Source of the DNA: a bacterium
GTDB taxonomy: Bacteria; Desulfobacterota; Deferrisomatia; Deferrisomatales; BM512
Reading direction: 5' to 3'
DNA length: 64,000 nucleotides
Assembly: GCA_004322275.1 (NCBI GenBank)
Contig: SCTA01000041.1
Span: 1 to 64,000 of the forward strand
The notes below the pieces were generated by a model, which did not search any database, was not told where the DNA came from, and saw only the letters and a list, made by a program, of their open reading frames with translations. Position numbers and translations under genes: made by a program. This document shows positions 11,459 to 59,086 of the stretch, piece by piece. Position 1 is the first letter of the stretch. Every line of letters starts with the position of its first letter.

Positions 11459-11593
11459 CAAAACTGCTGCGAGCCTGCCCCGCCTTCGTCGTCGCGATTC
11501 GCTTCCGGGCTCACCGTAGCGCTGCCGTTGCCTCGCCTTTCGCTACGCGGCTCCTTGAATCCGGGGCTCTCGCGACGTTTTTGGACAGTCCTC
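11459..11593 (+). repeat. Palindromic repeat family B, copy B1
   Basis: This element begins directly after the stop of the pump gene with aaaactgctgcgagcc and ends ggctctcgcgacgttttt, its imperfect complement. The outer stem seen in other copies is weak here. The interior holds 'gtagcgctgccg...cgctacgcggctcc'. Confidence 0.75.
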
Positions 11594-16517: not shown

Positions 16518-16546
16518 TTGACTATTGCCGGTCCCCCCTGTAAATT
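16518..16546 (+). promoter_or_regulatory. Sigma-70-type promoter of nadA
   Basis: A -35 ttgact (16518-16523) is followed after 17 bp by a -10 taaatt (16541-16546). Transcription would begin near 16553, 23 bp before the ATG at 16576, which supports that start over an upstream in-frame ATG at 16525. Confidence 0.65.
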
Positions 16547-16575
16547 CTCTCTTCCCCCTGGAAGGATATATTTTC

Positions 16576-17493: not shown

Positions 17494-17634
17494 GAGGATG
17501 CTGAAAAACTGTTGTGAGCCCCGTTTTCGGCGTCGCGTGCTCGCTCGAATCTCGCCTAACACCCGGTTATGTCTCGCTTCTCGCTGTGCGTCTCCTTGAA
17601 ACCGGGGCTTCTCACGACGTTTTTCAGCAACCTC
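17494..17634 (+). repeat. Palindromic repeat family B, copy B2
   Basis: It begins at the base after the nadA stop. The outer arms gatgctgaaaaac and gtttttcagcaacctc pair, and the next arms gtgagccccg and cggggcttctcac pair. The centre is cgtgctcgctcgaatctcgc. It may act as the nadA 3' end. Confidence 0.85.
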
Positions 17635-17660
17635 TTAACTCTTAACTCCGGTCTTTTGAA

Positions 17661-20600
17661 ATGGGCGCTGACAAGCTGATTGAACTGCTCGAATCCCTCG
17701 ACGGAAAGGGAAGGCGCATCCGCGCCCAAGGGCTCCGCTCGTCCAGCAGGGCCTATCTCCTCGCGCGGGTGGTGGGGAAGCTCAAAAAGCCCATCCTCGT
17801 CCTTACCGCTACCGTGCCGGAGGCTAAAGCCTTCGCCGACGAGCTTAAGTTCTTCCTCGGGGCGGATTCGGAAAAGCACCCCCTGCCCTGGGACCCCCCG
17901 GTTGTCTACCTTCCCCCGTGGGACACCCTCACCTTCGAGAACCTGCCCCCTCACCCGGAGATTTCGGCCCAGAGGATAGCGGCGCTCTTTCGGGCGACCA
18001 ACGGCGGCCCCTTCATACTGGTCGCCCCGGTGGAATCAGTCCTCCAGCGCCTGCCCGCGCCCAGGACCGTAGAGAACGGCTCGATACCTATATCGGTGGG
18101 CGAGGAGTTCTCCCGCGAGCGCTTTTTGCTTAAGCTGGCGCAGTCGGGGTACCAGCGGGTCGGGCAGGTGGAGGAGCGCGGCGAGGTGAGCGTGCGCGGC
18201 GGCCTCGTGGACCTCTTCGCCCCCCATTACGAGCGCCCTCTGCGCCTGGAGTTCTTCGGCGACGACCTCGAATCCATCAGAACCTTCGACCCCTCCACCC
18301 AGCGCTCTCTGGACAAGATCGAGGAGGCGGTGATTCTACCGGCGAGGGAGGTCGTCGCGAGCGAGGAGGCGGCCGAGGCGGCTTTCACAACCCTTCGGCT
18401 GCGCTGCCACAAGCTGGGGATGAACCGCTCCGAGACAGCGGAAGCCCTGGAAGCCTTCAAGACGGACCCCTTCGGCCCCCACCGCGAGCCCTTCCTCCCC
18501 TACTTCGGCGACACCGCGACCCTCTGGGACTATATCCCCGAAAGCGCCGCCGTCGCGGTGGACATGCCGGGGGATTTCGCCGAAAAGGTGGCGGAGTTCT
18601 CAAGGGAGATCGGCGAGGGGAGCCAGAGGGCGGAAAAATCCGGGAGGCTCTTTCCCGCGCTTGAAGAGTCCTATATCTCTCCCGAGGAGTGGAACGCGCA
18701 TCTGGGGAGTCGCCAGGTAATCGAGCTTGAATCCCTCGACATGGAGGTTCCCGGCGCCGTCTCCTTCGACACCCGCGACAACTCCGATCTCGTAACCGCC
18801 CTTCGCAACAACAGGGGCACGGAACGCCTCCTTACCCCGCTGGTGGACGAGATTAAAAAGGCGAAGGACAGGGGCCACCACACCTGCATCGTCGCCCGCA
18901 CCGCTCCGATGGCCCTGAAACTCCGGGAGTTCCTCCGGGAGTACTCTATTACCGTAGAGCCGGAGAAGTCCTTCACCCTCTCGACACCCGAAAACCGGGC
19001 GAGCGTCAGCCTCTGCATCGGAGGCCTCGCGAGGGGGTTTCGCTTCCCCGGCGAGAAGCTGACCCTCATCACGCAGGCCGAAATCTTCGGCATGAAGGGG
19101 AAGCGCCCTCCTCCGAGGCGCGGCCTTACCCGGACCTCGCTGGCGGAACTTAAAGACAACGACCTTATCGTCCACGCCGATTTCGGCATCGGGCGCTACA
19201 GGGGCATGGCCCGCATAGCTGTAGAGGGAATCGAGGGGGATTATCTCCACCTCGAATACGCGGACGGCGACAAACTCTACCTCCCCGTCACCCGCCTGGC
19301 CATAATCCAGCGCTACACCGCTCCCGGCGGGGGCGAAAACGTCTCCCTCGACAAGATAGGCGGCAAGCGCTGGGAGAAGGCGTGCAAGAAGGCCCGCGAA
19401 GGCATCGAGGAGATGGCGCACGAGCTTCTGGATCTCTACGCCAAGAGGACGCTGGCCGAAAGGCCGCCCTACAACGTCCCCGACCTCGCCTACCGCGAGT
19501 TCGCCGCCACCTTCCCCTACGAGGAGACAAGGGACCAGTTCGCCGCCATAGACGACGTCCTCGGGGACATGACCGGGAAGAGGCCGATGGACCGCCTGAT
19601 CTGCGGCGACGTGGGTTACGGAAAGACCGAGGTCGCCATCCGCGCGGCCTTCCAGTCCGTCCACGGAGGAAAGCAGGTCGCGGTGCTTACTCCCACCACC
19701 GTACTCGCCGCCCAGCACTTCCAGAATTTCAAGAAACGCTTCGAGGGGTACCCGATAACGGTCGAAATGCTCTCCCGCTTCGTCTCGAAAGAGGAACAGG
19801 ACGCGGTGTCCAGGCGGCTGGCTGAGGGGAAGACCGATATAGTCGTCGGAACCCACCGGCTGATACAGTCCGACGTAAAGTTCAAGAACCTCGGGCTGGT
19901 GGTCATCGACGAGGAGCACCGTTTCGGCGTCGCCCAGAAGGAAAAGCTGAAGAAGATGCGCGGCGAGGTGGACATGCTCTGCCTCTCGGCCACGCCGATA
20001 CCGCGCACCCTTCAGATGTCCTTCACCGGCATCCGCGACCTCTCCGTCATTGAGACTCCTCCCGCCGACCGCCTCTCGGTGCGCACGAAGGTGGCGCGCT
20101 TCGACGACGACGTAATAAAAGAGGCGATCAAGAGGGAACTGGGGCGCGGCGGTCAGGTATACTTTGTCCACAACCGGGTGCAATCCATCGAGGAAGTAGC
20201 CCACCACCTGCGGGAGCTTTTCCCCGGAGTGAGGTTCGCCGTCGGTCACGGCCAGATGAAGGAGAACTCGCTCCAGGAGGTGATGGAGCAGTTCACCACC
20301 GGCGAGGTCCAGGTTCTGGTCTGCACGGCGATAATCGAATCCGGGCTGGATATCCCGAGGGCCAACACCATACTCATAAACCGCGCCGACCTTTTCGGCC
20401 TCGCCGACCTCTACCAGCTTCGGGGAAGGGTCGGCCGGTCGAACGTTCAGGCTTACTGCTATCTCCTCCTCCCCGCCGAGGAACAGGGGGTGACCGCCGA
20501 CGCCCAGAAGCGCCTTCAGGCGATGCAGCAGTACTCCGATCTCGGGGCCGGGTTCAAGGTCGCCCTCCACGATCTGGAGATACGCGGGGCCGGCGAGCTT

Positions 20601-21146
20601 CTCGGCAAGAACCAGTCGGGGCAGATAGCCGCCATAGGCTTCGACCTTTACGCCGAGCTGCTGGAGGAAGCGGTCCACCGGCTTAAGGGCGAGCCGTACA
20701 GGAAAGCGCCGGAGCCGGAGATTCGGCTTAGAGTTCCCGCTCACTTCCCCGAGGCCTACGTACCCGACCCGCGCCAGAGGCTCGCCCTTTACGAGAGGCT
20801 CGCGAGGATCGAGGCGGAGGAAGAGGCCGAGGATCTGCGCTACGAGTTCATCGACAGGTTCGGCCCGCTGCCGAAGCCGGTAGAGAATCTCCTCGAAGTG
20901 ATGAAGCTTCGCCACCATCTCATAATGCTGCGCATACTCGCCCTCGACTACACAGGGGAGGAATTGGTCCTCTCCTTCGGGGAAGACCCCGGGGTCGATA
21001 CCGCGAGGATCGTGGAGCTGGCGGGCAAGGAGCCGAACCTCTTTCGCCTCACCCCGGACAGCCGCCTGAAGTGGAAGATCGGGAAGGGGCGGGAGGCGGG
21101 CGAGATATTTTCCTTGGCCAGGGAACTTCTCGACAGGTTAAGATGA
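17661..21146 (+). CDS. mfd: Transcription-repair coupling factor Mfd
   Basis: This 1161-residue protein has the full Mfd length. The N-terminal UvrB-like part contains 'RERFLLKLAQSGYQRV' and 'RGGLVDLFAP'. The RNA-polymerase interaction domain begins near 500 ('LIVHADFGIGRYRGM'). The superfamily 2 translocase has Walker A 'CGDVGYGKTEVA' (about 645-656) and 'VVIDEEHRFGV' (about 745), plus 'DIPRANTILINRADLFGLAD' and 'QLRGRVGRS' in the second RecA lobe. Mfd removes stalled RNA polymerase at DNA lesions and recruits UvrA, which is encoded five genes downstream. The start has only a weak ribosome site. Confidence 0.98.
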   Translation: MGADKLIELLESLDGKGRRIRAQGLRSSSRAYLLARVVGKLKKPILVLTATVPEAKAFADELKFFLGADSEKHPLPWDPPVVYLPPWDTLTFENLPPHPEISAQRIAALFRATNGGPFILVAPVESVLQRLPAPRTVENGSIPISVGEEFSRERFLLKLAQSGYQRVGQVEERGEVSVRGGLVDLFAPHYERPLRLEFFGDDLESIRTFDPSTQRSLDKIEEAVILPAREVVASEEAAEAAFTTLRLRCHKLGMNRSETAEALEAFKTDPFGPHREPFLPYFGDTATLWDYIPESAAVAVDMPGDFAEKVAEFSREIGEGSQRAEKSGRLFPALEESYISPEEWNAHLGSRQVIELESLDMEVPGAVSFDTRDNSDLVTALRNNRGTERLLTPLVDEIKKAKDRGHHTCIVARTAPMALKLREFLREYSITVEPEKSFTLSTPENRASVSLCIGGLARGFRFPGEKLTLITQAEIFGMKGKRPPPRRGLTRTSLAELKDNDLIVHADFGIGRYRGMARIAVEGIEGDYLHLEYADGDKLYLPVTRLAIIQRYTAPGGGENVSLDKIGGKRWEKACKKAREGIEEMAHELLDLYAKRTLAERPPYNVPDLAYREFAATFPYEETRDQFAAIDDVLGDMTGKRPMDRLICGDVGYGKTEVAIRAAFQSVHGGKQVAVLTPTTVLAAQHFQNFKKRFEGYPITVEMLSRFVSKEEQDAVSRRLAEGKTDIVVGTHRLIQSDVKFKNLGLVVIDEEHRFGVAQKEKLKKMRGEVDMLCLSATPIPRTLQMSFTGIRDLSVIETPPADRLSVRTKVARFDDDVIKEAIKRELGRGGQVYFVHNRVQSIEEVAHHLRELFPGVRFAVGHGQMKENSLQEVMEQFTTGEVQVLVCTAIIESGLDIPRANTILINRADLFGLADLYQLRGRVGRSNVQAYCYLLLPAEEQGVTADAQKRLQAMQQYSDLGAGFKVALHDLEIRGAGELLGKNQSGQIAAIGFDLYAELLEEAVHRLKGEPYRKAPEPEIRLRVPAHFPEAYVPDPRQRLALYERLARIEAEEEAEDLRYEFIDRFGPLPKPVENLLEVMKLRHHLIMLRILALDYTGEELVLSFGEDPGVDTARIVELAGKEPNLFRLTPDSRLKWKIGKGREAGEIFSLARELLDRLR

Positions 21147-21149
21147 TAT

Positions 21150-21290
21150 GAGGTTGCTGAAAAACTGCTGCGAGCCCCTTTTACGGCGTCGCGTGCTCGC
21201 TCGCCGCTCGCCGTATTGACGCACACTGTCTCGCGACTCGCTGTGCGGCTCCTTGTAAACGTGGCTCTCGCGACGTTTTTAAGCAACCTC
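21150..21290 (+). repeat. Palindromic repeat family B, copy B3
   Basis: It starts 4 bp after the mfd stop. The outer arms gaggttgctgaaaaac and gtttttaagcaacctc pair almost fully, with inner arms ctgcgagcc and ggctctcgcg. Confidence 0.85.
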
Positions 21291-31857: not shown

Positions 31858-31951
31858 GGCTGGTTGCAGAGAACTTCCGGGTTCTTGCAGAGTTGTTCAA
31901 AAATTTAGCAAAGCGGCGAGAAAGATTCTCTTTCAACTTCCGGCAAACTAT

Positions 31952-32060
31952 TTCGGCGAAGGGCAAGGAGTCCGCAGGGCGCGCGGTCGCAGGCAGTATC
32001 AGGAATACGCCAAGACCCGCGCCCGAGAAACGACGCAGACCTTCGCCGAAAGAGGAAGCC
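31952..32060. repeat. Structured repeat family C, copy C1
   Basis: The ends tttcggcgaagg and ccttcgccgaaa pair perfectly. The interior holds the small hairpin gtatcaggaatac and the shared 'aaggagtccgcagggcgcg' line. Copies C2 and C3 have different bases in both stems but keep pairing. It lies between convergent rng and bamD. Confidence 0.7.
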
Positions 32061-32073
32061 GGACGCCCAGCGT

Positions 32074-32742
32074 TTATTCGGTCGTGATCCCCGTTTCCTG
32101 CATCCTCGCCCGTATCTCGTCGGCCATCCTCGAAGCTTCCCCCGCCGCTTTTGAATCGTGGTAGTCGCGAAGTACGTTCGTAACCCTGCCCAGCGCCGCC
32201 TTGTACTCTTCCTTCCGGAGGTAAAACCGGGCTACGTAGAGCTCGTGGCCCGCGAGCAGCTCCTTCCCCTCCTTTGTCTTCTCACCGGCGTCCGCGGCGT
32301 ATTCCGAAGAGGGATAGGCCGAAATTAATCTCGTGAAGAGCTCCACCATCGTCTTGGCGGGCGTCTGGTCGCGGCCTTCCGTCTCAAGCTGGCCGTAGTA
32401 GGAAAGTCCCCTCTTGTAAATCGCGTAGGGAACCCTGGCGTGTGCGGGGTGGTTTTCCTCGAAGGCGCGGTAGGAGGCCGCCGACTCGGCGAAATTCTCC
32501 CGGAGATAAAGCACGTCCGCCGAAAGCAGCTCGGCCTCGATGGCGAGGGGCGAAAAGGGATATTCCTCCCTCATCGTCATGATCAGCTCGTCCGCCTCCT
32601 CGAAGTTCTCATGTTCCACGGCGTTTTTCGCCTGATTGAAGAGCGCCTCGGCGGGGGGAACGTCGCGCTTCTCGGCCCCGGCGCACCCCCAGAGGAGGGA
32701 AACCGCGAAAAGAAGCGCAAGCGTGTATATTAAGGATTTCAT
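32074..32742 (-). CDS. bamD: Outer-membrane assembly lipoprotein BamD-like
   Basis: This 222-residue protein has a lipoprotein signal 'LLFAVSLLWGCAG' (Cys20), followed by five TPR-like helical pairs: 'AEALFNQAKNAVEHENFEEA', 'AIEAELLSADVLYLRENFAE', 'AHARVPYAIYKRGLSYYGQL' and so on. Length and repeat pattern fit BamD/YfiO, the essential partner of BamA in inserting beta-barrel proteins. A generic TPR lipoprotein cannot be ruled out. It is the last gene of the gatCAB-mtnA run; aaagg lies before the ATG. Confidence 0.85.
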   Translation of the reverse strand: MKSLIYTLALLFAVSLLWGCAGAEKRDVPPAEALFNQAKNAVEHENFEEADELIMTMREEYPFSPLAIEAELLSADVLYLRENFAESAASYRAFEENHPAHARVPYAIYKRGLSYYGQLETEGRDQTPAKTMVELFTRLISAYPSSEYAADAGEKTKEGKELLAGHELYVARFYLRKEEYKAALGRVTNVLRDYHDSKAAGEASRMADEIRARMQETGITTE

Positions 32743-37175: not shown

Positions 37176-37322
37176 AAGGCTGTTGAAAAACTGTTGCGAG
37201 CCGCGTTTTTAAGTGTCGCCGTGCTCGCTCAGGGGCTCTCCGTAGCGCTGCTACTGTCTCGCCCCATCGCTACGCGGCTCCTTGAAACCGCGGCTTCTCC
37301 CGACGTTTTTCAGCAGCCTTTG
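37176..37322 (+). repeat. Palindromic repeat family B, copy B4
   Basis: The outer arms aaggctgttgaaaaac and gtttttcagcagcctt pair, and gcgagccgcg pairs with cgcggcttctcc. This copy lies between divergent genes (gatC and a radical SAM activase), unlike the others, which follow stop codons. The rest of the gap, 37057-37175, shows nothing clear. Confidence 0.85.
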
Positions 37323-37362: not shown

Positions 37363-37959
37363 TTGCTGAATATTCGCCACATCGCGGTAACGGAGGGGGT
37401 GAACGGGCCGGGAGCGCGCCTGACCGTCTGGGCGCAGGGCTGCCCCTTCGTCTGCGAGGGGTGCTTCAACCCCGAGCTTCGCCCCTTTGAGAACAAGCGG
37501 CTTCTTTCGCCTGAAAAACTGCTGGAGGAAGCGCTGAGCCTCGATTTTTCAGGGGTCACTCTCTCCGGGGGAGAGCCCTTCGCGCAGGCGGACGAGCTGG
37601 CCGATTTTCTCCGGCTGCTGAAGGCGAAGCGACCCAAAACCGGCGTCATCGCCTTCACCGGTTACACCCTCGCCGAGCTTAAAAACGGTCCCTGGGAACT
37701 CAAAAAGCTCCTTTGCGAAATCGACCTTCTGATCGACGGCAGATACGAGGTTCAAAGCCCTTCCGCCGGAAGCCTTCGGGGCTCCTCGAACCAGAGACTC
37801 GTTCCCCTTACCGAGACCGGCCTCGACCTTCTCGAAGAGATCGTCATGAACAGCCGCGCCGAGACCGCGCTGACGATAACCGGAGAGGGAGAGGTCATAG
37901 TCTCCGGCTTCCCCACGGCTGAATTCGTCCGCAACCTGCGAAACAAGCTCTCGGGATGA
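37363..37959 (+). CDS. Radical SAM activating-enzyme-like protein (NrdG/PflA type)
   Basis: This 198-residue protein carries the radical SAM cluster motif CxxxCxxC in 'AQGCPFVCEGCFNP' (Cys27, 31, 34) and the SAM-binding 'VTLSGGEPFAQADEL'. Length and motif order match glycyl-radical activases, especially the NrdG-like short form. No glycyl radical enzyme is adjacent, so its partner is unknown. The start is TTG with gcaggg upstream. Confidence 0.85.
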   Translation: MLNIRHIAVTEGVNGPGARLTVWAQGCPFVCEGCFNPELRPFENKRLLSPEKLLEEALSLDFSGVTLSGGEPFAQADELADFLRLLKAKRPKTGVIAFTGYTLAELKNGPWELKKLLCEIDLLIDGRYEVQSPSAGSLRGSSNQRLVPLTETGLDLLEEIVMNSRAETALTITGEGEVIVSGFPTAEFVRNLRNKLSG

Positions 37960-37966
37960 GTTTTTT

Positions 37967-38252
37967 TAGCTGTAAACAAAAAACCTTCGAGCCGATAAGT
38001 TCATATAATTTACTTATCGGCGAGCCTTCTTTTCGTCCTACTCGTGGCCCGTACGCGGCGCAACGAGTGGAGGCGTCGGGCCGGCGCGGGGTCTTAGCGA
38101 AGCGATAGCGGAGCGAGTGCCCCGTACGGCCCAGCCGGAACGAAGTGGTCGCGCTTTTTTAAAGCGCGAGCGACGGGTCCGGGCCGATTTTTTGGGCACT
38201 TTTTTCTAAAAAAAGTGCCATGGGTGCGGGGCGAAGCCCGGCAAGTTGTAAA
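37967..38252 (+). repeat. Structured repeat family A, copy A3
   Basis: It starts agctgtaaacaaaaaacc, then the stem ccgataagt/acttatcgg. The middle is almost identical to A1 and A2. Later hairpins are gtcgcgcttttttaaagcgc and ggcacttttttctaaaaaaa with its partner gtgcc. The tail is 'ggtgcggggcgaagcccgg'. It fills the gap between the activase stop and the convergent methyltransferase; nothing else is seen there. Confidence 0.85.
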
Positions 38253-43063: not shown

Positions 43064-43330
43064 AGTTGCGGGGCTGTTCGCCCCTGCGCCCCAACACCGC
43101 TTCTTTTGAGCGCCCAAAAGAAGCGGTGGGAAGAAAAGGCGCGCCCCCTTTGCGCCAAAGCGCTCGTTCATCGCTCGGCGAGCGCGCAAATCGCCACGGG
43201 CTCATGGCGCGCTCGGAACACCCTCGCTCTCTCACTCGCTGGCGCCGGAGGGCGTGGGGAACGAAAATAAGGCTCGAACAAAAGCGAATCTTTTTGAGCT
43301 TTTGTTCTCGAAGGTAGATTTTCTGCACAT
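43064..43330 (-). repeat. Structured repeat family A, copy A4
   Basis: On the minus strand it begins after ctcgaagg with the stem gaacaaaagc/gcttttgttc. It ends with the hairpin accgcttctttt.../aaaagaagcggt and tail 'ggggcgcaggggcgaac'. The middle differs from A1-A3, but the order of hairpins is the same, so it is a diverged subtype. Confidence 0.7.
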
Positions 43331-43339
43331 ATCTCAAAT

Positions 43340-43620
43340 AGCTATAAACAAATTACCTTCGAGCACACGAGAGCAAATAATCCTTCTCGTGTGCGAGCCA
43401 TCCTTTCGTCCTCTTCGTGGCCCGTAGGTGACGCAGGGAGCGGAGGCGGAAAGGGCGGCGGGGGGGTCTTAGTGAGCGTAGCGAACGGGTGCCCCCTCAC
43501 GCCCCCGCCGTAGCGACCGGTCGCTCGAAGAGCGAGCGTCTCCTTCCGGGCCGATTTCTTGGGTACTTCTTTCTAAAAGAAGTACCAAGGGGAGTGGGGC
43601 AGAGCCCCACAGACGTAGAC
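43340..43620 (+). repeat. Structured repeat family A, copy A5
   Basis: It begins agctataaacaaattaccttc and the stem cacacgaga/tctcgtgtg. Later hairpins are ggtcgctcgaagagcgagcg and gggtacttctttctaaaaga with partner agtacc. The tail is 'gagtggggcagagcccc'. It faces A4 head to head with only about 10 bp between the inner ends. Confidence 0.75.
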
Positions 43621-46295: not shown

Positions 46296-46420
46296 ACGGC
46301 AAAGGATTTTGACGCCGGGCGAGGAGCCCGCAGGGAGCGCGACGAAGACAGTAGCGTGACTACGTCGAGGAGCGCTACCGAGTAGCGACGACGACCCGCG
46401 TCAAAAGCCGAAGCCGTAGA
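46296..46420. repeat. Structured repeat family C, copy C2
   Basis: The ends ttttgacgccgggcg and cccgcgtcaaaa pair. The inner hairpin is gtagcgtgactac, and the lines gaggagcccgcagggagcgc and gcgaccgagtagcgac-like 3' half match C3. It fills most of the gap between the LolC/E gene and pfkA. Confidence 0.75.
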
Positions 46421-46463: not shown

Positions 46464-47621
46464 ATGCGTATAGGAATACTAACCGGCGGCGGAGACGTTC
46501 CGGGTCTAAATCCCGCGATAAGAGCCGTAGTAACCCGCGCGATGGCGGAGGGCCACACCGTTCTTGGGTTTCGCCGGGGCTGGATGGGGCTACTCCACCT
46601 CAATCCCGACGACCCGGAGAGCGTCAGGGAATTCACCCTTGAGCTGAACCTCGACAATACGCGCACGGTGGAGCGCAACGGCGGAACCTTTCTCCACACC
46701 GCCCGCGTAAACCCCTGGGGCGTCGCACCCAAGAGCGTTCCCGCCTTCATATCGCAAGACCTGCTGCGCCCCGGCGAGGGGGGGAAGATCGACTGCACCC
46801 TCCACGTCAAAAAGGTGCTCGAAAGGATGGGGATAGACGTTCTGGTCCCGATCGGCGGCGAAGATACCCTCGGCTACGCCTCCCGCCTCCACCGCGAAGG
46901 CTATCCGATGGTCTCCATACCCAAGACGATGGACAACGACGTCTTCGGCACCGACTACTGCATCGGTTTTTCCACCTCGATAAGCCTCTCCGTGAAATAC
47001 ATCCACCAGCTTCGCACCTGCACCGGCTCCCACGAGCGCATCGGCGTGGTGGAGCTTTTCGGCCGCTATTCCGGCGAGACTTCCCTCATCGCGGGCTACC
47101 TCGCCGCCGCCGACCGGGTGCTCATTCCCGAGGTTCCCTTCAATCCCGAGAAGGTGGCGGAGCTGATACTGCGCGACAAGAAGGCCTGCCCCTCGCACTA
47201 CTCGATGCTCACCATCTCCGAGGGCGCTCTTCCCGAGGGCGGGGACATTCACCAGACGGGCGAGGCCGACGCCTTCGGCCACAAGAAGCTGGGCGGCATC
47301 GGCCAGCAGCTCTCAAAGAAGATAGAAGAGGTCACCGGCGAAAAGACTATGTTCCAGACGCTCGGCTACCTCATGCGCTCCGGCCCGCCCGACGCGCTTG
47401 ACCTGATGGTTGCGAAGAACTACGGCAATTCGGCGATGGACCTGATCTCCAGAAAGGAATTCGGCCGGATGGTCGCTCTGCAGGGCGGCAAGTACACCCA
47501 CGTACAGGCCGACATGCCCCTGATGGGCTCCAAGACCGTCGATGTCGATACCCTCTACGACAGGGAAAACTACCTGCCCCGGATAAGGACCGCCGTCGGG
47601 CTCCCGATGTTCCTCTACTAG
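46464..47621 (+). CDS. 6-phosphofructokinase, PPi-type active site
   Basis: This 385-residue enzyme has the PFK fold: '[20 protein letters not shown]' (nucleotide/PPi loop), '[10 protein letters not shown]' and '[18 protein letters not shown]'. In ATP-dependent enzymes these read GGDG(S/T) and PGTIDND. Asp in place of the second Gly and Lys in place of Gly are accepted marks of pyrophosphate-dependent PFK, so this is likely reversible and PPi-linked. '[20 protein letters not shown]' is the usual sugar-phosphate helix. aaaggag precedes the ATG. Repeat B5 starts at its stop. Confidence 0.93.
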
Positions 47622-47744
47622 GGAAGCGGCTGTGAGCCCCGTTTTCTGTGTCGCGTGCTCGCTCGAAGCTCGCCTAACACCCGGTTATGTCTCGCTTCTC
47701 GCTGCGCGTCTCCTTGAAACCGGGGCTTCTCGCAACGCTTCCCC
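47621..47744 (+). repeat. Palindromic repeat family B, copy B5
   Basis: It starts within the pfkA stop. The outer arm is gggaagcg instead of the usual ...gaaaaac, and the far end is cgcttccc, so the change is matched on both sides. The inner arms tgagccccg and cggggcttctcg also pair. The interior is as in B2. Confidence 0.85.
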
Positions 47745-49119: not shown

Positions 49120-49249
49120 CATTTCCCACCTTTTATTTTTTCCGCTCAACTCCCCGGAAAGACGGAATAATATCCCCTTGCCTCGAAATATTAAGGGGCG
49201 GGGAATTTTCCGCTCCCAGATGCACCCTAGTACCCGGTGAAATATTGTT

Positions 49250-49346
49250 TTACAATGCAAAATGGAGAGACTTTTTCCGGTATTCTTTTCGCCGCAAAAG
49301 CGAAAACCGCGCTTTACCCGGTAGAGTCGCGGTTAAGCTTCGGAGG
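49250..49346 (+). promoter_or_regulatory. Structured 5' leader of the giant gene
   Basis: The leader contains two GCAAA boxes (atgcaaaatgg near 49256 and cgccgcaaaagcg near 49291) and a long hairpin, aaccgcgctttacc paired with ggtagagtcgcggtt, ending just before the ribosome site cggagggt. The layout recalls c-di-GMP-I aptamers, but the conserved GNRA loop and ACGCAAAGC box are absent, so no class is assigned. Confidence 0.3.
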
Positions 49347-49353
49347 GTATGAG

Positions 49354-52300
49354 ATGAAAAGTCGCATGAAGAGATTTCTTCCCGTCGTTCTCGCTCTGCC
49401 GGTTTTCGGCCTCGTCTTTCTGCCCGTCCCGGCTTTTGCCGCGACCTTCGGGAACATTACCGAGGATTTTTCAGGTGTGCTGGGCAAGGCCGGGGCTACG
49501 GCGAACTGGAACACCGGCTCCGGCGCTCTTTCGCTCGGGAGCGCGAGGAGGGTGTTCAACCCTTTCAGCTATGATTCGGTTCCGGCCCTTCTCGGCGCGC
49601 CCTCGACCAATTTCGGCAGAGACGCGGTCTTTTCCGACCTTGACGGCGACGGCGACCTCGATCTGGCCGTGGCCAATCAGGGCTTTCCCCCGGTCATGTA
49701 CAGGTACGGCGGCTCCTACTCCACTGAGACCCCGATAAGCTCCGACGTTTACATGAGCATGTCGATCTCGGCGGGGGACGTGGACGGCGACGGGGACAAC
49801 GACCTCGTTGTGGCCAACTACGACACCGGAGGCAAGAACCGCCTCTACCTTAACGACGGAACCGGGGTTTTCACCGCCATACCGATAGCCGTCGATTTAA
49901 CCTCGGAGAGCAACGATACCCTCCTTTCCGACTTCGACGGCGACGGGAAACTCGACCTCGTGATTTCCTCCTACGCCAGCGGAACCTGGATATATCTCAA
50001 CGACGGCTCCGCCGCGCCCTTCACCGGCGTCGGAGCTTTGATAAGCGCCATGCCCGAAATAAACGCAATCGCGTCCGGCGACCTCGACGGCGACGGAGAC
50101 CCCGACATCGCCACCGCCGCCTATACCCTCAACGGCAGCTACAACGAAGTATATGTAAACAACGGCGGCGGCTCTTTCGCGGTCTTGCCGATGCTCACCG
50201 CCCCGCTTGGAAACTATTCGGTCGTCGGAATGGGCGACATCGACGGCGACGGCAACCTCGATCTCGTCTACGGTGTCTTCAGCGGTTCCCCAATTATCTT
50301 TTTCAATACCGGCTCCCTGCCGGACTTTACGACCCTCAACATAGATGAAGGCGGCCCTTTCGCGGCCGGGGTGGCCCTCGGCGACGTTGACAACGACGGA
50401 GACATCGACCTCGTCTTTTCCGACGTCAACGGCTACGGCCCGCGCCTCTATACAAACGAAAGCCGAGGCCAGTCCTTTTATGGAATGCAAATCGGCTCAA
50501 ACTTCGGAACGCCGCAATACGCCGTCGCGATGGCCGACCCCGACAACGACGGCCTCCTCGAACTTTTCGCGGGGAGCTTTTCCGGCGAGCACAACTATTT
50601 CGACAACTCCGGAACCCCCAATCCCTTTGACGGCTATCTCAGCCCCACTTCTGTCTTTGCGGCGGAAGTACAGGGACTGGCGAAGGCCGACTTCAACGGC
50701 GACGGAAAGAAGGATTACGTCGAGGCCAGCGTCGACGGCGCTTACAAGGTATGGCTCAATACGGGCTTTGGCTACTTCAACCCCGCCTCTCCCGCTCCGG
50801 CTCCCGGAACGGGGCTGGCGAGGGTCGCCGTGGCCGATTTCAACGGCGACGGCAGGCCGGACGTGGTCGGCGCGCGCCCCGGCACACCCTTCACGGTCGC
50901 TCTCAACAACGCCTCTTCCGATCCCTTCTACGTGGCGACGCTGTGGTTTAGCGACCAGCCGATGCCGGCGGCGCTTACCGGAATCGGAGCGGGAGATTTC
51001 GACGGCGACGGCGACAACGACGTTGTGACTGTGGGTATGGGTGATTCGGCAAAGCTCTGGCTGAACAACGGCCTCGGCTCCTTTGTTCTCTCCGACACCG
51101 GCATAACCGTAAATTCCAGCGCTCTCGCGGTCTTCGACTACCAGAACGACGGCGACCCCGATCTTGTTTTTGCCGACACGGGCAGCACTTTCATCCTGCA
51201 AAACAACGGCGGCCTCGCGTTTTCCGCCATGTCGGTGGGAGCGGCCGGCACAACCGCCGTAGCCGCCAAAGACCTTCCTACCGGCTTCGACCTGATAGTT
51301 TTCGGGTTCAACGGAGCCATCCCCGTTTACTATATCGCCGACCCGTCCGGCGTTTTGACCGGCCCGTCAAATATCGGCTCGACGCCGTTACAGGCAACCG
51401 CCATCGCATTAGCCAATTTCAATCTGGACAAACGCCAGGATGTGGTTGTCGGCACCCAGGGGGGGGAGTTAAAGGTATTCTTCGGCCAATCCGGCGGAAG
51501 CTATTTCCTCGACACCACCCCCTACTATATCGCGGGCACCGGACTTTCGGCAGTCAACGCGCTTCTCGCGGACGATTTCACCGGGGACGCCTACCCGGAT
51601 ATTCTTGCCGCTTTCCCTACCGAGGCGACTTCTCTGGCCAGGAATCAGTCGGGGATTTACGGCGTGCCCAACTACTCTCCGGTAGCCATAGGCTCGCTTG
51701 AAAGAAACACATGGTCTCTTGCGGTGGGAGACGTTGACGGCGACGGCGACCTCGATTTCGTAGAGGGAAACAGTGACGAGGTCGCTCTTCTTTTTATAAA
51801 CAACGGAAGCGAAACCCCCTTCGCCAGCGCTTCGGGTTTTTTCTTCGGCGGAGGAGATTTCAATCCCGTGCCCGCGCTCGCGGATTTCGATGGCGACGGC
51901 GATCTCGATCTGGTAACCGGCAGTACCGTTGGGCCGCTTGACTCGGCTCCCGGAGCGGCAAAAAAGCTATATCTGAACGGCGGACAGGCAACCGGTTTTT
52001 TCAGCCTGTCGGAGCAGGTAGGCGACCTGAACGATTCGACAAACGACATAGCCGCGGGCGACCTCAACGGCGACGGCTATCCCGATCTCGTAACCGCCAA
52101 CGGCAAGGCACAGCTGGATACGGTCACCTTCACCATGACCTACACCGGCCAGCAGAACAAGGTCTACATAAACAACGGCACCTCTGCGCCCTTCGCCTCG
52201 GTGACGGCGCTTAACGTCGGGGCGGAGCCGTATTTTTACACCAGCGTGGCCCTCGGCGACATGAACGGCGACGGCCTTATGGACGTTGTCGCCGCCGGAC

Positions 52301-55300
52301 GCGCTCCCACCGCAGGCACCCCCGTTCCCGTAAGCCTTTACCTCAATCAGGGCGGGGCCGACCCCTTCGGCGCAGCTTCTCCTCTCTATATAGGAACCGA
52401 TACAGCCTCAGTAGTGGACCTGGCGGTCGGAGACGTGGACAGGGACGGCGATCTGGACGTCGTCGCCGGCAAAAGGTCCAGCCAGGCTCTTCTGTACCTG
52501 AACAACGGCACCTCCGATCCCTTTTACATGGTTACCGGGACCCCCGTTTCCATCTCCACGGACCCGCAGGGAGGCATGATCGAGCTTGCGGACGTAAACA
52601 ACGACGGTTATCCCGACCTTGTGGTGTCTTCCTTCGACAACGTGCTCCTTGTCTACCTGAACAACGGCTCTTACGATCCCTTCTACGGCCTCTACGGGGG
52701 CACGCAGGGCGTTGAGGTGTCAACCTCGCCGGAAGCGTTTACGAGAACCGCAACCCATGACTTCAATTCCGACGGCATAAAGGAAATTCTGGCGGCCAAC
52801 ACCTCCGCCACTCCCACAAAGCTCTTCGGCCCGGCCTTCGTCTCGCCGGCCTACGCTGAATCCTCGCCGGTAGATGCCGGTCTCAGCGTCGCGGCGGCCA
52901 CCCTGAACTTCTCGGGGTCCGTGCTCGCGGGAAGCGAAGTGGAATTTTACCTCTCCAACGACGGGAGCAAGCTGTACAGGGTCGTGCCGGGTCACGAGTT
53001 TGTCTTTCCGGCCGAAAACAGCACCATCAAATGGCTGGCGAGGCTCTCAAGCGGCGTGCCGGTCTATTCGCCTCTTATCGACTCGGTTTCCATCGACTAC
53101 CGCACCGCTTACGCCGTTCCCTCCGCGAACGCCGGGGCGGATCGAAACGTAAACGAAAGCTCTACCGTCGATCTGACCGGCGGTTATACCGATCCCGACA
53201 ACGACGTGACGACTTTTCTCTGGGAGCAGACCGGGGGGCCCCTCGTCGCGACAATAAACGGCGCCGACACCGCCAACGCCTCCTTTACCGCCCCCTCGAC
53301 GGTCTACCTTGAGAACCTCGTGTTAACCTTCAGCTTTACCGTCACCGACGCTCAGGGCTTTACCAGCTCCGACGAAGTTGTCCTCACGGTCGTCAACGTA
53401 AACCAGCCGCCGGTGGCGATCATCGAGGACGGCGCAGCCTCGATAACCTTCACCGAAGGGGACCTTGCCTGCCTCTACGGCGTCAATTCCGCCGACCCGG
53501 AGTTTGGATCCCTCACTTACGCCTGGGAACTGCTGAGCGGAATCACCCCCGTCTACGTCGGCGGCATGGACCAGCCTATGGTGTGCTTCACCGCTCCCGA
53601 GGTAGCCGCTGGCGGCGCTACCCTTACTTACCGGCTTACCGTCGCCGATCCCGAAGGAGCTACCGGCGCCTCTACCATCGCGGTCATCGTGCAGAACATT
53701 GCCTCAGGGAACCTCCCGCCGGTGGCGAACGCCGGGGCCGACAGGTCAGTCCAGGAGGGCGCTTCGGTGACTCTCAGCGGAGCGGGTTCCTCCGACCCCG
53801 ACGGGACCATCGTTTCCTGGCTGTGGGTACAGGACTCCGGGCCTACGGTGACGATGACGGGAGCAAACACCTCGTCCATGACCTTCACCGCGCCGCAGGC
53901 AGCGACGGCACCCGTTGTCCTCACCTTCGCCCTCACGGTTTACGACAACGGCGGCCTCTACACCTTCGACCTCGTCACCGTCACCGTCGAAAACCTCAAC
54001 CACGCCCCGGCTCCTCCGGCCAAATCCATAACCACCAATCAGGACCTGGCCGCGACCTTTACCATCGATCCGGGCGACGCCGACGCGGAAGACACCCACA
54101 CTTTCGCCCTCTCCGGGAGCCCTGAAAACGGCACTGTTTCGGTCGCGGACGGCGGCGAAGTCACTTACATACCCAACGCGGGCTTCCGGGGAAGCGACCA
54201 GTTCTCGATAACTGTGACCGACTCGCACGGGGCAAGCGGGGTCGCCGTTGTCAGCGTCACCGTGGAGGCAGTGGAAACCCCCACCGACGAGCTTGTCCTG
54301 AATGCGGACGATCCGATCTCCCTCGACCCTGACAACCCCCTTTTGAAGGCGCTTGCCGCCCTCATCGGCGATTTCAACGGCGACGGCATCCCCGACCTTG
54401 TCGCGGTGGACGGCGAAAGCGACCAGGTGTACATGTTCGTCGGCGACGGCCTCGGAGGCTTCGTCGCTTCTCCTGTGACTTACAGCGCAGGCGGCATTGC
54501 GGTCACCCTGTCCGCAGGCGATCTGAACAACGACGGCAGACTTGACCTGATAATCGTCGTGGACACCGGCGGGGTTTCTCCCAGAAGCGGAAGGGCGGCG
54601 GGAGCGGTCGATCCCGGGGGTTCCTATCAGCTCTCCTCCCTGCTGGGCGGTGCGACCGGTTTTGAAGACCCGGTGGTCGATGCCTCCAGCGACGTCGCCC
54701 CCCTCCCCCCGGCGGTCGGAGACATCGACGGCGACGGCGACGACGACGTGGCCGCCGCCGGAGCCGGTCCGGCTGACGTGGAGGTCTACGAATCATCCAG
54801 CGACGGGTCCGGCTACCAGCTATCGAACCTGCTCACGATCCCGGCCGAAAATCCCGGTCCGCCGGTTATCGCCGACGTAAACGGCGACGGCGACGCGGAC
54901 ATCGTTGTCGCGAACACCGCAGCCGATACCGTTACCGCGAACATCAACGCCGGCGACACTACTTTCGCCGAGACCATAACGGTCGAGGCGGCTACCGGCA
55001 GCAGCGGCTATCTGGCCACCGGAGATTTCAACAACGACCAGAAGATGGACGTGGCGACCACCGGCGGAGCGACCGGCGAGATAAACATACTCCTCTGGGA
55101 CAACGGTTCCAGCACTCTGGAGCTGGCCGCGACCTACATCTCCGAGGGCACCCCCTCCGAGGTCATCGCCGACGACTTCAACAACGACACCTATATGGAC
55201 CTGGCGGTTCTGGAAGAAACCGAATCGATGGTGAGAGTCCTTCTGGGCACAGGGACGGGCGGTTTCGACGCCGTGCTTGTCAAGAACGTCGGGGGAGACC

Positions 55301-55473
55301 CCTCATCCCTTTCGGCGGGCGACGTAGACAACGACAACTACCTCGATATAGCCGTCGTTGACAGGGTAACGGGAGAGGTCAAAATCTTCAGGACCGACGT
55401 AAAGACCGTGAAACCCAAAAGCTCCGGAGGAGGAGGAGGAGGCGGCTGCTTCCTCAAAGCCCTCGGCTTCTAA
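49354..55473 (+). CDS. Giant secreted FG-GAP/VCBS repeat protein
   Basis: The ATG at 49354 follows cggaggg and begins a signal peptide (to about 30, 'VPAFAAT'). The 2039-residue protein has about 1130 residues of FG-GAP/VCBS repeats with Ca-binding 'DxDGDGDxD' loops ('DLDGDGDLDLAVAN', 'DVDGDGDNDLVVAN'). Next come two PKD/REJ-like sandwiches ('ANAGADRNVNESSTVDLTGG' near 1256 and 'ANAGADRSVQEGASVTLSGA' near 1452), a middle Ig-like unit, a cadherin-like unit ('FTIDPGDADAEDTHTFALSG'), and a second FG-GAP block to about 2010. The tail is 'SSGGGGGGGCFLKALGF'. Family members are surface or extracellular, adhesive or matrix-like. The Gly-rich plus Cys end suggests C-terminal anchoring. It is monocistronic. 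Confidence 0.88.
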   Translation: MKSRMKRFLPVVLALPVFGLVFLPVPAFAATFGNITEDFSGVLGKAGATANWNTGSGALSLGSARRVFNPFSYDSVPALLGAPSTNFGRDAVFSDLDGDGDLDLAVANQGFPPVMYRYGGSYSTETPISSDVYMSMSISAGDVDGDGDNDLVVANYDTGGKNRLYLNDGTGVFTAIPIAVDLTSESNDTLLSDFDGDGKLDLVISSYASGTWIYLNDGSAAPFTGVGALISAMPEINAIASGDLDGDGDPDIATAAYTLNGSYNEVYVNNGGGSFAVLPMLTAPLGNYSVVGMGDIDGDGNLDLVYGVFSGSPIIFFNTGSLPDFTTLNIDEGGPFAAGVALGDVDNDGDIDLVFSDVNGYGPRLYTNESRGQSFYGMQIGSNFGTPQYAVAMADPDNDGLLELFAGSFSGEHNYFDNSGTPNPFDGYLSPTSVFAAEVQGLAKADFNGDGKKDYVEASVDGAYKVWLNTGFGYFNPASPAPAPGTGLARVAVADFNGDGRPDVVGARPGTPFTVALNNASSDPFYVATLWFSDQPMPAALTGIGAGDFDGDGDNDVVTVGMGDSAKLWLNNGLGSFVLSDTGITVNSSALAVFDYQNDGDPDLVFADTGSTFILQNNGGLAFSAMSVGAAGTTAVAAKDLPTGFDLIVFGFNGAIPVYYIADPSGVLTGPSNIGSTPLQATAIALANFNLDKRQDVVVGTQGGELKVFFGQSGGSYFLDTTPYYIAGTGLSAVNALLADDFTGDAYPDILAAFPTEATSLARNQSGIYGVPNYSPVAIGSLERNTWSLAVGDVDGDGDLDFVEGNSDEVALLFINNGSETPFASASGFFFGGGDFNPVPALADFDGDGDLDLVTGSTVGPLDSAPGAAKKLYLNGGQATGFFSLSEQVGDLNDSTNDIAAGDLNGDGYPDLVTANGKAQLDTVTFTMTYTGQQNKVYINNGTSAPFASVTALNVGAEPYFYTSVALGDMNGDGLMDVVAAGRAPTAGTPVPVSLYLNQGGADPFGAASPLYIGTDTASVVDLAVGDVDRDGDLDVVAGKRSSQALLYLNNGTSDPFYMVTGTPVSISTDPQGGMIELADVNNDGYPDLVVSSFDNVLLVYLNNGSYDPFYGLYGGTQGVEVSTSPEAFTRTATHDFNSDGIKEILAANTSATPTKLFGPAFVSPAYAESSPVDAGLSVAAATLNFSGSVLAGSEVEFYLSNDGSKLYRVVPGHEFVFPAENSTIKWLARLSSGVPVYSPLIDSVSIDYRTAYAVPSANAGADRNVNESSTVDLTGGYTDPDNDVTTFLWEQTGGPLVATINGADTANASFTAPSTVYLENLVLTFSFTVTDAQGFTSSDEVVLTVVNVNQPPVAIIEDGAASITFTEGDLACLYGVNSADPEFGSLTYAWELLSGITPVYVGGMDQPMVCFTAPEVAAGGATLTYRLTVADPEGATGASTIAVIVQNIASGNLPPVANAGADRSVQEGASVTLSGAGSSDPDGTIVSWLWVQDSGPTVTMTGANTSSMTFTAPQAATAPVVLTFALTVYDNGGLYTFDLVTVTVENLNHAPAPPAKSITTNQDLAATFTIDPGDADAEDTHTFALSGSPENGTVSVADGGEVTYIPNAGFRGSDQFSITVTDSHGASGVAVVSVTVEAVETPTDELVLNADDPISLDPDNPLLKALAALIGDFNGDGIPDLVAVDGESDQVYMFVGDGLGGFVASPVTYSAGGIAVTLSAGDLNNDGRLDLIIVVDTGGVSPRSGRAAGAVDPGGSYQLSSLLGGATGFEDPVVDASSDVAPLPPAVGDIDGDGDDDVAAAGAGPADVEVYESSSDGSGYQLSNLLTIPAENPGPPVIADVNGDGDADIVVANTAADTVTANINAGDTTFAETITVEAATGSSGYLATGDFNNDQKMDVATTGGATGEINILLWDNGSSTLELAATYISEGTPSEVIADDFNNDTYMDLAVLEETESMVRVLLGTGTGGFDAVLVKNVGGDPSSLSAGDVDNDNYLDIAVVDRVTGEVKIFRTDVKTVKPKSSGGGGGGGCFLKALGF

Positions 55474-55577: not shown

Positions 55578-55705
55578 ACGGCGCAGGATTTTGCCGCCGG
55601 GCGAGGAGCCCGCAGCGAGCGCGACGAAGACAGTAGCGTGGCTACGGCAAGGAGCGCGAGCGAGTAGCGACGAAGCCCCGCGGCAAAAGCCGAAGCCGTC
55701 GGGCG
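55578..55705. repeat. Structured repeat family C, copy C3
   Basis: The ends ttttgccgccgggcg and ccccgcggcaaaa pair (gccgc/gcggc where C2 has gacgc/gcgtc). The inner hairpin is gtagcgtggctac. It lies between the giant gene's terminator and the convergent end of nikO. Confidence 0.75.
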
Positions 55706-55714
55706 GCAAGCCCG

Positions 55715-56455
55715 TCAGGAAGGGCAGACCTGCATCCGCAGAGGTTTCTCCAGTCCGCTTCTTTCAAGCAGTTCCTCATCCGCGAAAATATCCTTCGTCG
55801 GGCCGTCGGCCAGCACCTCGCCCCCGTGAAGGACGATGGTGCGCTCGCAAAGGTCGAGGACCAGGTCGAGGTCGTGGGTGGCTATTATCTTGGTGTGGTG
55901 GAAGGAGCCGAGAAGCGTTATCAGGCGTCGGCGCGCACGCGGGTCAAGGTTAGAGCTGGGCTCGTCCATGACCAGCACGTCAGGCCGCATCGCCAGCACC
56001 GAGGCGATGGCGACGGCCCTCTTCTCGCCGCCGGAAAGGCGGTGCGGCGGGCGGTCCCGGAGGGCCAGCGCGCCCACCCGTTCGAGGGCGTCCACCACCC
56101 TCTTTTCCACTTCCTCCGGCGGAAGCCCGAGATTCAGCGGACCGAAAGAAACGTCCTCGTCCACCGTGGGCATGAAGAGCTGATCGTCAGGGTCCTGAAA
56201 GACCATGCCGACAGTCCTTCGCACCGACTCCAGAGTCTTTGGCGTAATCGGGACGTGTCCTATGCGGACCGCCCCCTCAACCGGGGCCAGAAAACCGTTC
56301 AGGTGGAGAAGGAGAGTCGATTTGCCCGCCCCGTTGGCCCCCACGAGGGCTACCGATTCGCCGTGAGTGAGGGTGAAGCTCACCCCTCGAAGGGCCTTGG
56401 TTGAATCCGGGTAGGTATATTTGAGGTCGACGACCTCAATTATATGGTGGCTCAT
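55715..56455 (-). CDS. nikO: Nickel/cobalt ECF-type ABC ATPase NikO
   Basis: The 246-residue ATPase starts at ATG 56455, 2 bp after the nikQ stop; a longer frame into nikQ is spurious. Walker A is 'LVGANGAGKSTLLLHLNG', the Q-loop region is 'GMVFQDPDDQLFMPTVDEDV', the signature is 'LSGGEKRAVAIASVLAM' and Walker B is 'DVLVMDEPSSNLD'. It belongs to the CbiO/NikO branch. With NikQ and NikMN it forms the full importer, and the nearby nikR favours nickel over cobalt. Confidence 0.95.
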   Translation of the reverse strand: MSHHIIEVVDLKYTYPDSTKALRGVSFTLTHGESVALVGANGAGKSTLLLHLNGFLAPVEGAVRIGHVPITPKTLESVRRTVGMVFQDPDDQLFMPTVDEDVSFGPLNLGLPPEEVEKRVVDALERVGALALRDRPPHRLSGGEKRAVAIASVLAMRPDVLVMDEPSSNLDPRARRRLITLLGSFHHTKIIATHDLDLVLDLCERTIVLHGGEVLADGPTKDIFADEELLERSGLEKPLRMQVCPS

Positions 56456-57886: not shown

Positions 57887-58918
57887 ATGCACATGGCCGA
57901 TGCGCTCGTATCTCCCGCCGTTGGCGGCGCGGTATGGGCCGCCACAGCAGCAGCCACCCTTTACTGCGCCAAAAAGGTGCGAGAAGAGATGGACGACCGC
58001 AAGGTTCCCCTGATGGGGGTTCTCGGCGCTTTCATCTTCGCCGCCCAGATGCTGAATTTCACCATACCGGCGGCGGGCTCCAGCGGCCACCTCGGCGGCG
58101 GAATGATCCTCGCCATACTTCTCGGGCCTTACGCGGCTTTTATCGTGATGGCCTCGGTGCTGGCCGTGCAGGCGCTCTTTTTCGCCGACGGCGGCCTTCT
58201 GGCGCTTGGCTGCAACATCCTGAACCTCGGCTTTTTTCCCTGCTTCATCGGCTACCCCCTCATCTACAAAAGGGTCGCCGGAAAAACCCCCTCTTCGGGG
58301 CGCATAATGGCGGGGGCGATGATCTCGTCGATTGTCGGCCTGCAACTCGGCGCTTTCGGGGTCGTGCTTGAGACCGTCGCGTCAGGGGTATCGGAACTTC
58401 CCTTCGGCACCTTCGTCTTCCTCATGCTGCCGATCCACCTCGCCATCGGCGTAGTCGAAGGGCTCGCCACCGCCGCCGTGGTCACCTTCGTCTGGCGCGA
58501 GCAGCCCGACATCCTCCTTCGCGCCGCCTCCGGCAATCAATCCGGAGGAGCATCCATGAAAAGAGTCCTCGCCGGGCTGGGTTTATTCGCGCTGCTGGCG
58601 GGAGGCCTCCTTTCGTGGTTCGCCTCGACGAACCCGGACGGCCTCGAATGGTCTATCGCGAAAATAACGGGGAAGGGCGAGATAGAGGCGAAAGAGGACG
58701 GCGTTCACGCCGCGCTTAAGGATATTCAGAAAAAGACGGCTCTGCTTCCGGACTACGGATTCAAGGAATCCGGGGGGGAGGAAAGCGAAGCGAAGAACAA
58801 CGGTTTCTCTCCCGAGGCGGGGACGAGCGCCGCGGGGCTCGTCGGCGGCGCAGTAACCCTTCTTCTTGCCGCCGGTTTCGGCTGGGCGCTTAAGCGCCGC
58901 AACCAGCCGGCCGCCTGA
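57887..58918 (+). CDS. nikMN: Fused nickel transport protein NikMN
   Basis: The 343-residue protein joins the S component NikM/CbiM (1-215) to a NikN/PDGLE domain (225-343). It begins 'MHMADALVSPAVGGAVW'; the N-terminal Met-His-Met binds the metal in this family. 'GAFIFAAQMLNFTIPAAGSS' and 'GGGMILAILLGPYAAFI' are NikM signatures. The second part has one helix, 'NPDGLEWSIAKI', a periplasmic segment, then a last helix. It takes up nickel with NikQ and NikO on the opposite strand. gaaggaa precedes the ATG. Confidence 0.94.
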   Translation: MHMADALVSPAVGGAVWAATAAATLYCAKKVREEMDDRKVPLMGVLGAFIFAAQMLNFTIPAAGSSGHLGGGMILAILLGPYAAFIVMASVLAVQALFFADGGLLALGCNILNLGFFPCFIGYPLIYKRVAGKTPSSGRIMAGAMISSIVGLQLGAFGVVLETVASGVSELPFGTFVFLMLPIHLAIGVVEGLATAAVVTFVWREQPDILLRAASGNQSGGASMKRVLAGLGLFALLAGGLLSWFASTNPDGLEWSIAKITGKGEIEAKEDGVHAALKDIQKKTALLPDYGFKESGGEESEAKNNGFSPEAGTSAAGLVGGAVTLLLAAGFGWALKRRNQPAA

Positions 58919-59056
58919 GGCTGTTTAAAAACTGCTGCGAATCCCGCCTTCGGCGTCGCGTGCTCGCTCGAATCTCGCCTAACAGTCAGTTATGCCTCGC
59001 TTCTCGCTGCGCGTCTCCTTGAATCCGGGGTTCTCGCGACGTTTTTAAACAGCCTC
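58917..59056 (+). repeat. Palindromic repeat family B, copy B6
   Basis: It starts inside the nikMN stop codon. The outer arms gaggctgtttaaaaac and gtttttaaacagcctc pair perfectly over 16 bp, with the inner arms ctgcgaatccc and ggggttctcgcg. It is the best example of the family. Confidence 0.9.
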
Positions 59057-59086
59057 CTGGCTCCGTTATCCAGGCAGCCAGCCCGA

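Follow-up and report, generated by a model that had tools for sequence, protein, structure and literature searches.

Bacterial genomes contain several kinds of imperfect palindromes. Integron attC sites lie behind a stop codon, their antisense strand folds, and their structure is conserved whereas their sequence is variable. REP/BIME elements are multicopy and extragenic, form strand-specific hairpins with conserved mismatches, and in many cases lie near stop codons. In both REPs and attC sites, mismatches or flipped-out bases are described as guiding the enzyme (PMC8266576), and ribosome stalling has been reported for REPs located 15 nt or less from a stop codon (PMC12306157). Bacterial MITEs such as ERIC, RUP and NEMIS are short, non-coding and multicopy, with inverted ends. 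For Geobacter metallireducens, a 24-copy set of multicopy 'predicted short RNA elements' was published in 2009 (PMC2700814). The element analysed here resembles each of these. Judged from its sequence, it has the strand-specific hairpin with conserved mismatches of a REP, but it measures about 122 nt as opposed to 20-40, has no GTAG/GGAG tag, keeps a fixed polarity relative to stop codons and occurs in genomes without a Y1 enzyme. Like attC, it is an antisense-strand imperfect palindrome behind a stop codon that keeps its structure while its sequence varies; unlike attC, it is found as dispersed single copies behind different genes, and attC-type RYYYAAC/GTTRRRY ends were found in 0 of 208 copies. 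It shares with the MITEs the general traits listed above, but its core is conserved and its arms are variable, the reverse of the usual MITE. Target duplications were looked for in four sets comprising 206 copies, and the flanks matched no further than expected by chance; no parent insertion sequence came to notice.

We analysed a 64,000-nt stretch (the window; positions 1 to 64,000 of contig SCTA01000041.1, assembly GCA_004322275.1) of a Desulfobacterota genome of 2.88 Mb. The closest named relative by protein is an unclassified metagenome-assembled genome, isolate D1FMe1.002, at 86%. A preliminary description had singled out three copies of a repeat (family C) at 31952, 46296 and 55578. We found that this repeat is a foldable element of about 122 bp with 124 matches to a covariance model (R1) in the genome. 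All three copies are present and complete (122-123 bp; Table 1), position 31952 falling within the 31939-32061 copy, and the paired arms quoted for them (gacgc/gcgtc, gccgc/gcggc and ggcgaagg/ccttcgcc) as well as the three inner hairpins were read correctly. The line 'aaggag(c/t)ccgcag', described as conserved, occurs exactly in the 31939 copy only, and the 46296 and 55578 copies read 'gaggagcccgcag'. Searches by blastn with one query per type scored 40 places each in the genome, with identities between copies of up to 93-96% within a subtype. A total of 67 distinct places were gathered, 54 of them full-length, and chimeras of type 1 and type 2 exist among the copies. Several copies of both types have in common an inserted module, CCCCCGGTA..TTCCG(A/G)GGGCAGGC, in the right arm (L020, L036 and, in the present genome, the places C37:1870, C5:102228, C18:85572, C35:39967 and C8:18153).

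Table 1. Copies of the element in the window, and parts of the fold in the 46296 copy.
Feature	Positions	Strand	Remarks
Type-1 element	46296-46417	+	R2 110.9 bits; ends ACGGC/GCCGT
Type-1 element	55578-55699	+	R2 106.6 bits; ends ACGGC/GCCGT
Type-2 element	31939-32061	+	R2 120.5 bits; ends CCGGC/GCCGG
Diverged member (D6 group)	17506-17624	-	36.0 bits; 12 nt behind stop of 16525-17493(+)
Diverged member (D6 group)	21162-21280	-	40.7 bits; 15 nt behind stop of 17661-21146(+)
Diverged member (D6 group)	47627-47737	-	32.3 bits; 5 nt behind stop of 46464-47621(+)
Diverged member (D6 group)	58929-59046	-	32.7 bits; 10 nt behind stop of 57887-58918(+)
Diverged member (D6 group)	37188-37310	-	35.5 bits; no adjoining stop codon (codon-usage gene calls)
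Partial diverged member	11478-11566	-	22.8 bits; 19 nt behind stop of 7016-11458(+)
Outer arm TTTTGACGC	46307-46315	+	pairs with 46398-46406
Outer arm GCGTCAAAA	46398-46406	+	partner of 46307-46315
GGAG side of tandem G.A internal loop	46323-46326	+	partner 46386-46389 CGAC
CGAC side of tandem G.A internal loop	46386-46389	+	partner 46323-46326 GGAG
Inner hairpin GACAGTAGCGTGACTACGTC	46347-46366	+	closing pair of the loop has alternated repeatedly between G-C and T-A within the family

The fold opens with a short outer stem, followed inwards by a 3x3 loop, by a stem carrying a single conserved A.G mismatch and by a long arm stem. Further in come a purine-rich internal loop (CRAGGMN/NRACGCMG), a middle stem that differs strongly between subfamilies, and an apical hairpin of the form GTAN..NTAC. 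Of the 54 close copies, 53 have retained GGAG/CGAC as the internal loop. Across 102 copies from the phylum, this loop takes the forms GGCG/CAAC (66 copies), GGAA/TGAC (14) and GGCT/TTAC (6) and, more rarely, GGAG/CGAC (4), GGCA/TAAC (3) and GAAA/TGAC (3). Its non-standard pairs change in step, and its closing G-C is swapped for A-T. At other places in the hairpin, some copies have tandem G.A mismatches (CGAG/CGAG) at positions that are occupied by Watson-Crick pairs (GGCG/CGCC or GGAG/CTCC) in others. When two copies were folded as single-stranded RNA, z-scores of -5.7 and -6.7 against dinucleotide shuffles were obtained, and folding of the 55578 copy as DNA gave -1.4 only. In the D6 group, the outermost 8-12 nt of both arms are specific to each copy yet complementary (for example, GACC/GGTC versus GAGC/GCTC), as can be seen at 17494-17636 and 58919-59060 of the window and in L325 compared with L316.

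We then investigated the base pairing. The preliminary description had proposed that the idea would fall if further copies broke the pairing as often as they kept it. The copies do not behave in this way: of the 1616 base-pair cells in the 54 full-length copies, 95.8% pair, compared with 30.7-46.7% when the partners are slid along the same copies. This close set shows no excess over column shuffling, either in pairs with changes on both sides (9 versus 8.8) or in further pair types (18 versus 18.2), and two base pairs are unpaired in 18 and 24 of the 54 copies. The R-scape test suggested beforehand was run in a similar, tree-aware form. Within the close family it singled out only column pair 64-71 (E ~0.008), the closing pair of the inner hairpin (G-C in 33 copies, T-A in 21), because the remaining changes reflect a single split between types 1 and 2, to which most two-sided changes within the close family go back. 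With 122 diverged copies, two pairs reached E<0.05, and the top ranks were mostly occupied by hairpin pairs.

In view of these outcomes, we counted events on single branches, using the 122 diverged copies aligned without structure and 200 null simulations. Double substitutions that keep the pair occurred 61 times on single branches, whereas the null simulations gave a mean of 4.5 and a maximum of 12, and slid partners gave 0-8; recombination between subtypes is another possible source of a double change on one branch. Single-sided breaks numbered 77, slightly under the null mean of 86. In addition, a second covariance model (R2) yielded 102 copies, nearly all from genomes outside those used for model building. 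Here, 93.7% of 2762 cells pair (32.2-46.4% with slid partners), 26 of the 28 pairs have changes on both sides, and covariation is 0.733 compared with 0.197 after shuffling, in an alignment that leans towards the structure because it was fitted to the model. The decisive evidence for pairing is provided by the diverged copies. The compensatory base changes reported from three copies are thus real: diverged copies of other genera and families of the phylum covary, the non-canonical loop included, and this supports the proposed structured RNA or hairpin-dependent repeat family.

Substitution patterns and predicted stabilities show that the strand that folds is the + strand of the window as printed. 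By parsimony counts, changes from Watson-Crick to G.U numbered 59 and those from Watson-Crick to A.C 29, as compared with 46.6 and 44.8 under the null (p 0.002). Among 66 copies, one of them from the same-genus genome, the + strand folds better than its complement in 55 when treated as RNA and in 65 when treated as DNA. The same strand is the more stable one as RNA in 51 of the 58 copies of a distant, complete genome (G283).

The element has a fixed position relative to genes. Of the 200 copies having a right neighbour, 163 have their right end towards a convergent gene, and the distance from this end to the stop codon is mostly between 0 and about 16 nt. In the present genome, a convergent right gene is found for 52 of 64 copies scoring at least 100 bits, 24 of 30 copies between 45 and 100 bits and 16 of 21 below 45 bits; elsewhere, it is found for 27 of 30 copies in genome G003 and 44 of 55 in G283. 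Gaps of at most 10 nt to the stop codon were counted for 36 of the 65 close copies of this genome and for 25 of the 58 of G283, while 2.6% would be expected from random intergenic placement, as estimated from the gaps of this window. No rule was seen on the left side in a first count of the 67 copies in this genome, in which the left gene is on the + strand in 28 cases and on the - strand in 28, and usually lies tens to hundreds of nt away. Of the five full-length diverged members in the window, four begin 5-15 nt after a stop codon and share this polarity; for the partial one the distance is 19 nt. All gene calls are our own and based on codon usage. The fixed polarity is new here, and a distant family within the phylum shows it too.

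The placement of all three window copies at gene 3' ends, stated in the preliminary description, was borne out. The right end of the 31939 copy lies 12 nt behind the stop codon of the convergent gene 32074-32742(-), and that of the 55578 copy about 16 nt behind that of the convergent gene 55715-56455(-). In the case of the 46296 copy, an upstream + strand gene ends about 103 nt leftward, and the right neighbour is the + strand gene beginning at 46464 (46464-47621), which is phosphofructokinase-like to judge from its position and relatives. The right neighbour reads away from the 46296 copy, which thus departs from the convergent rule and belongs to the roughly one fifth of copies without a convergent right neighbour.

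We also examined the flanks. A T-tract in the left flank is strong in types 1 and 3; as it is absent in type 4, D6 and G003, we rejected it as a general target site. Hairpins in the flanks were hardly more stable than shuffled sequences. Simple sequence targeting fails to explain a putative preference for insertion a few nt behind a stop codon. In G283, the strand of the copies depends on the half of the chromosome, counted from the start of the record: 28 are on the minus and 4 on the plus strand in the first half, and 6 and 20, respectively, in the second. This corresponds to 48 of 58 copies following one strand per half (p 4.5e-7), a real pattern that may simply follow gene orientation and was not adopted as a replication-strand rule.

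Copies turn over rapidly, and sites are not shared even within a genus where checked. R1 gives 124 matches in this genome, 4 in a same-genus genome (6 with R2) and 31 in one of the same family. The same-genus genome keeps the neighbouring genes at the 31939 site but has an ordinary bidirectional terminator instead of the element, and the span between the aligned gene parts is 163 nt as opposed to 360 nt here. At the 46296 site, a named metagenome-assembled genome has both neighbouring genes and no element, and at the 55578 site the element is absent from a relative whose left gene is different. We compared four G283 sites with relatives: two are element-free in both relatives (one cleanly, one with a further difference of about 600 nt), at the third the relatives have an ordinary terminator, and at the fourth one relative has its copy elsewhere in the gap and in the opposite orientation. 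At two G283 sites, the stop codon of the orthologues is at the same codon position. At other sites occupied by the element in G283, its relatives have ordinary terminators close behind the stop codon. One G283 site has a terminator resembling theirs about 370 nt downstream of the stop codon, with the element and other repeats in between. Counted on the gene strand, 15 of 65 copies in this genome have an intrinsic terminator behind the element (6.7 expected), as do 11 of 58 in G283 (3.9 expected), and G003 shows no such excess (2 of 31, 2.0 expected).

In G283, the element also occurs in tandem, at a period of about 121-132 bp (L358, L362, L370 and L371). Five G283 copies (at 1597102, 3030875, 3769154, 4160290 and 1822992) have a 3' extension resembling GACGCNCGACCTTCATGAAAT to the right of the element. 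No protein carried by the longer G283 copies was found, the downstream frames looking unrelated by eye.

The three covarying copies in the window are part of a larger, phylum-wide family: R2 matches 48 of 297 genomes and 35 of 199 genera of the phylum, most abundantly in G283 (81 matches), G063 (52), G268 (51), G287 (40) and G072 (37). A check against Rfam, as had been proposed, found no counterpart: with Rfam 15, the window matches only a tRNA, and 13 element loci searched at E<=5 gave four chance matches, none over an element. The models R1 and R2 allow annotation of hundreds of intergenic copies without an Rfam match. The published Geobacter elements are intergenic and multicopy, as here, and their central palindrome GRCGTAGCGCTGCTACGCC is the complement of a core of the GGCGTAGCAGCGCTACGYC type at several of our loci (PMC2700814). 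The apical hairpin in L313 and L323 is the complement of GRCGTAGCGCTGCTACGCC, with a near match in several subtypes of the present genome. The accessible portion of the Geobacter report gives, in contrast to the present analysis, no structure, covariation, polarity or stop-codon rule (PMC2700814). Taking the core palindrome alone, we infer that the two sets may belong together. Within the literature searched, the palindrome GTAGCGCTGCTAC appears in print only in PMC2700814, and no description of the stop-codon rule for the present family was found.

With moderate confidence, we read the element as a non-autonomous mobile hairpin, one folded strand of which would be recognised by an enzyme and inserted between a stop codon and a terminator. 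The strand antisense to the capped gene would fold into a mismatch-bearing hairpin, which might be recognised much as REPs and attC sites are, and insertion would take place in the short stretch that is transcribed but untranslated. Fold and loops would persist since only folding copies are multiplied, and the arms would be free to vary provided that both sides change. The target could be ribosome-free RNA or DNA behind the stop codon, reached as an R-loop or via an RNA intermediate. Several results count against this reading: no mobiliser was found, target duplications were not above chance, about a fifth of the copies lack a convergent right neighbour, G003 has no terminator excess, and sequence by itself does not account for the positional preference. 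It is rather unlikely that the element is copied through RNA; carried in the 3' UTR of the mRNA of the capped gene, it would be reverse-transcribed into the antisense strand, and this single DNA strand would fold and be inserted behind another stop codon. If true, this would explain the location between stop codon and terminator, the fixed polarity and the antisense structural selection together, and the element would be a retro-moved hairpin of a new kind; we know of none. The positional rule leads to a testable question, namely how a mobile element senses the end of a coding region.

The main rival to the mobile hairpin is a structured RNA element at mRNA 3' ends, serving protection, processing or transcription-translation uncoupling and kept by selection, with spread being secondary. 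We regard it as a real possibility, if not a probable one. The strong RNA fold, the non-canonical loop covariation, as expected for an RNA 3D motif, and the 3' UTR position all agree with it, and the stalling of ribosomes by REPs near stop codons (PMC12306157) and the annotation of the related-looking Geobacter family as predicted short RNA elements (PMC2700814) point the same way. However, the structurally selected strand is antisense to the mRNA of the adjacent gene, left genes in this genome read into the element in the folded sense in only about half of the cases, and the lack of shared sites even within a genus, where checked, is at odds with a selected role. That the folding strand runs antisense to the capped gene is explained by a folded DNA strand no less well than by an mRNA element. 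A selected mRNA 3'-end role could also coexist with mobility. It is improbable that the element acts as a transcription terminator in repeat form: although it now occupies some orthologous sites at which relatives have ordinary terminators, the hairpin lacks a following T-run on both strands, so that it is not a standard terminator. The gene strand continues with A-rich sequence behind the element in types 1 to 3, and some copies still have a normal terminator downstream.

The remaining explanations concern the origin of the covariation and the moving enzyme. Palindromes could perfect themselves through template switching in replication and so covary without selection, and the double changes on single branches and the copy-to-copy variation in step of the D6 outer arms would be compatible with this. 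We nevertheless consider it very improbable, since specific mismatches are kept and not perfected (as in the GGAG/CGAC loop), the loop exchanges occur among non-standard pairs, and the preference for G.U over A.C is confined to a single strand. The idea that the element is a REP/BIME mobilised by a Y1 (RAYT) transposase likewise deserves little credence. REPs do act as single-strand-specific imperfect hairpins with required mismatches (PMC8266576), but Y1_Tnp (PF01797; RAYT/IS200) is absent from this genome, the same-genus genome G001, and the element-rich complete genomes G283 and G287. By our tally, 28 of the 48 genomes bearing the element have Y1, as against 184 of the 249 others (Fisher p 0.036), which is opposite to the direction expected. 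In the 8 nt left of the element, the region searched, REP-like GTAG/GTGG/GGAG tags occur in 4 of 208 copies and CGTC in 1 of 208. Small palindromic repeats are usually classed as Y1-moved REPs, and the present data provide an abundant structured family in complete genomes free of Y1.

Two further features of the window were observed. Another repeat family (D10/D17/D20, about 250 bp), with inverted arms of up to 74 nt, occurs at 1-2960, 37971-38220 and 43270-43590, and one of its copies begins about 11 nt behind the stop codon of 37363-37959(+). Finally, a 2078-aa frame at 49237-55473 contains many DxDGDG-type repeats and is presumably FG-GAP-like.
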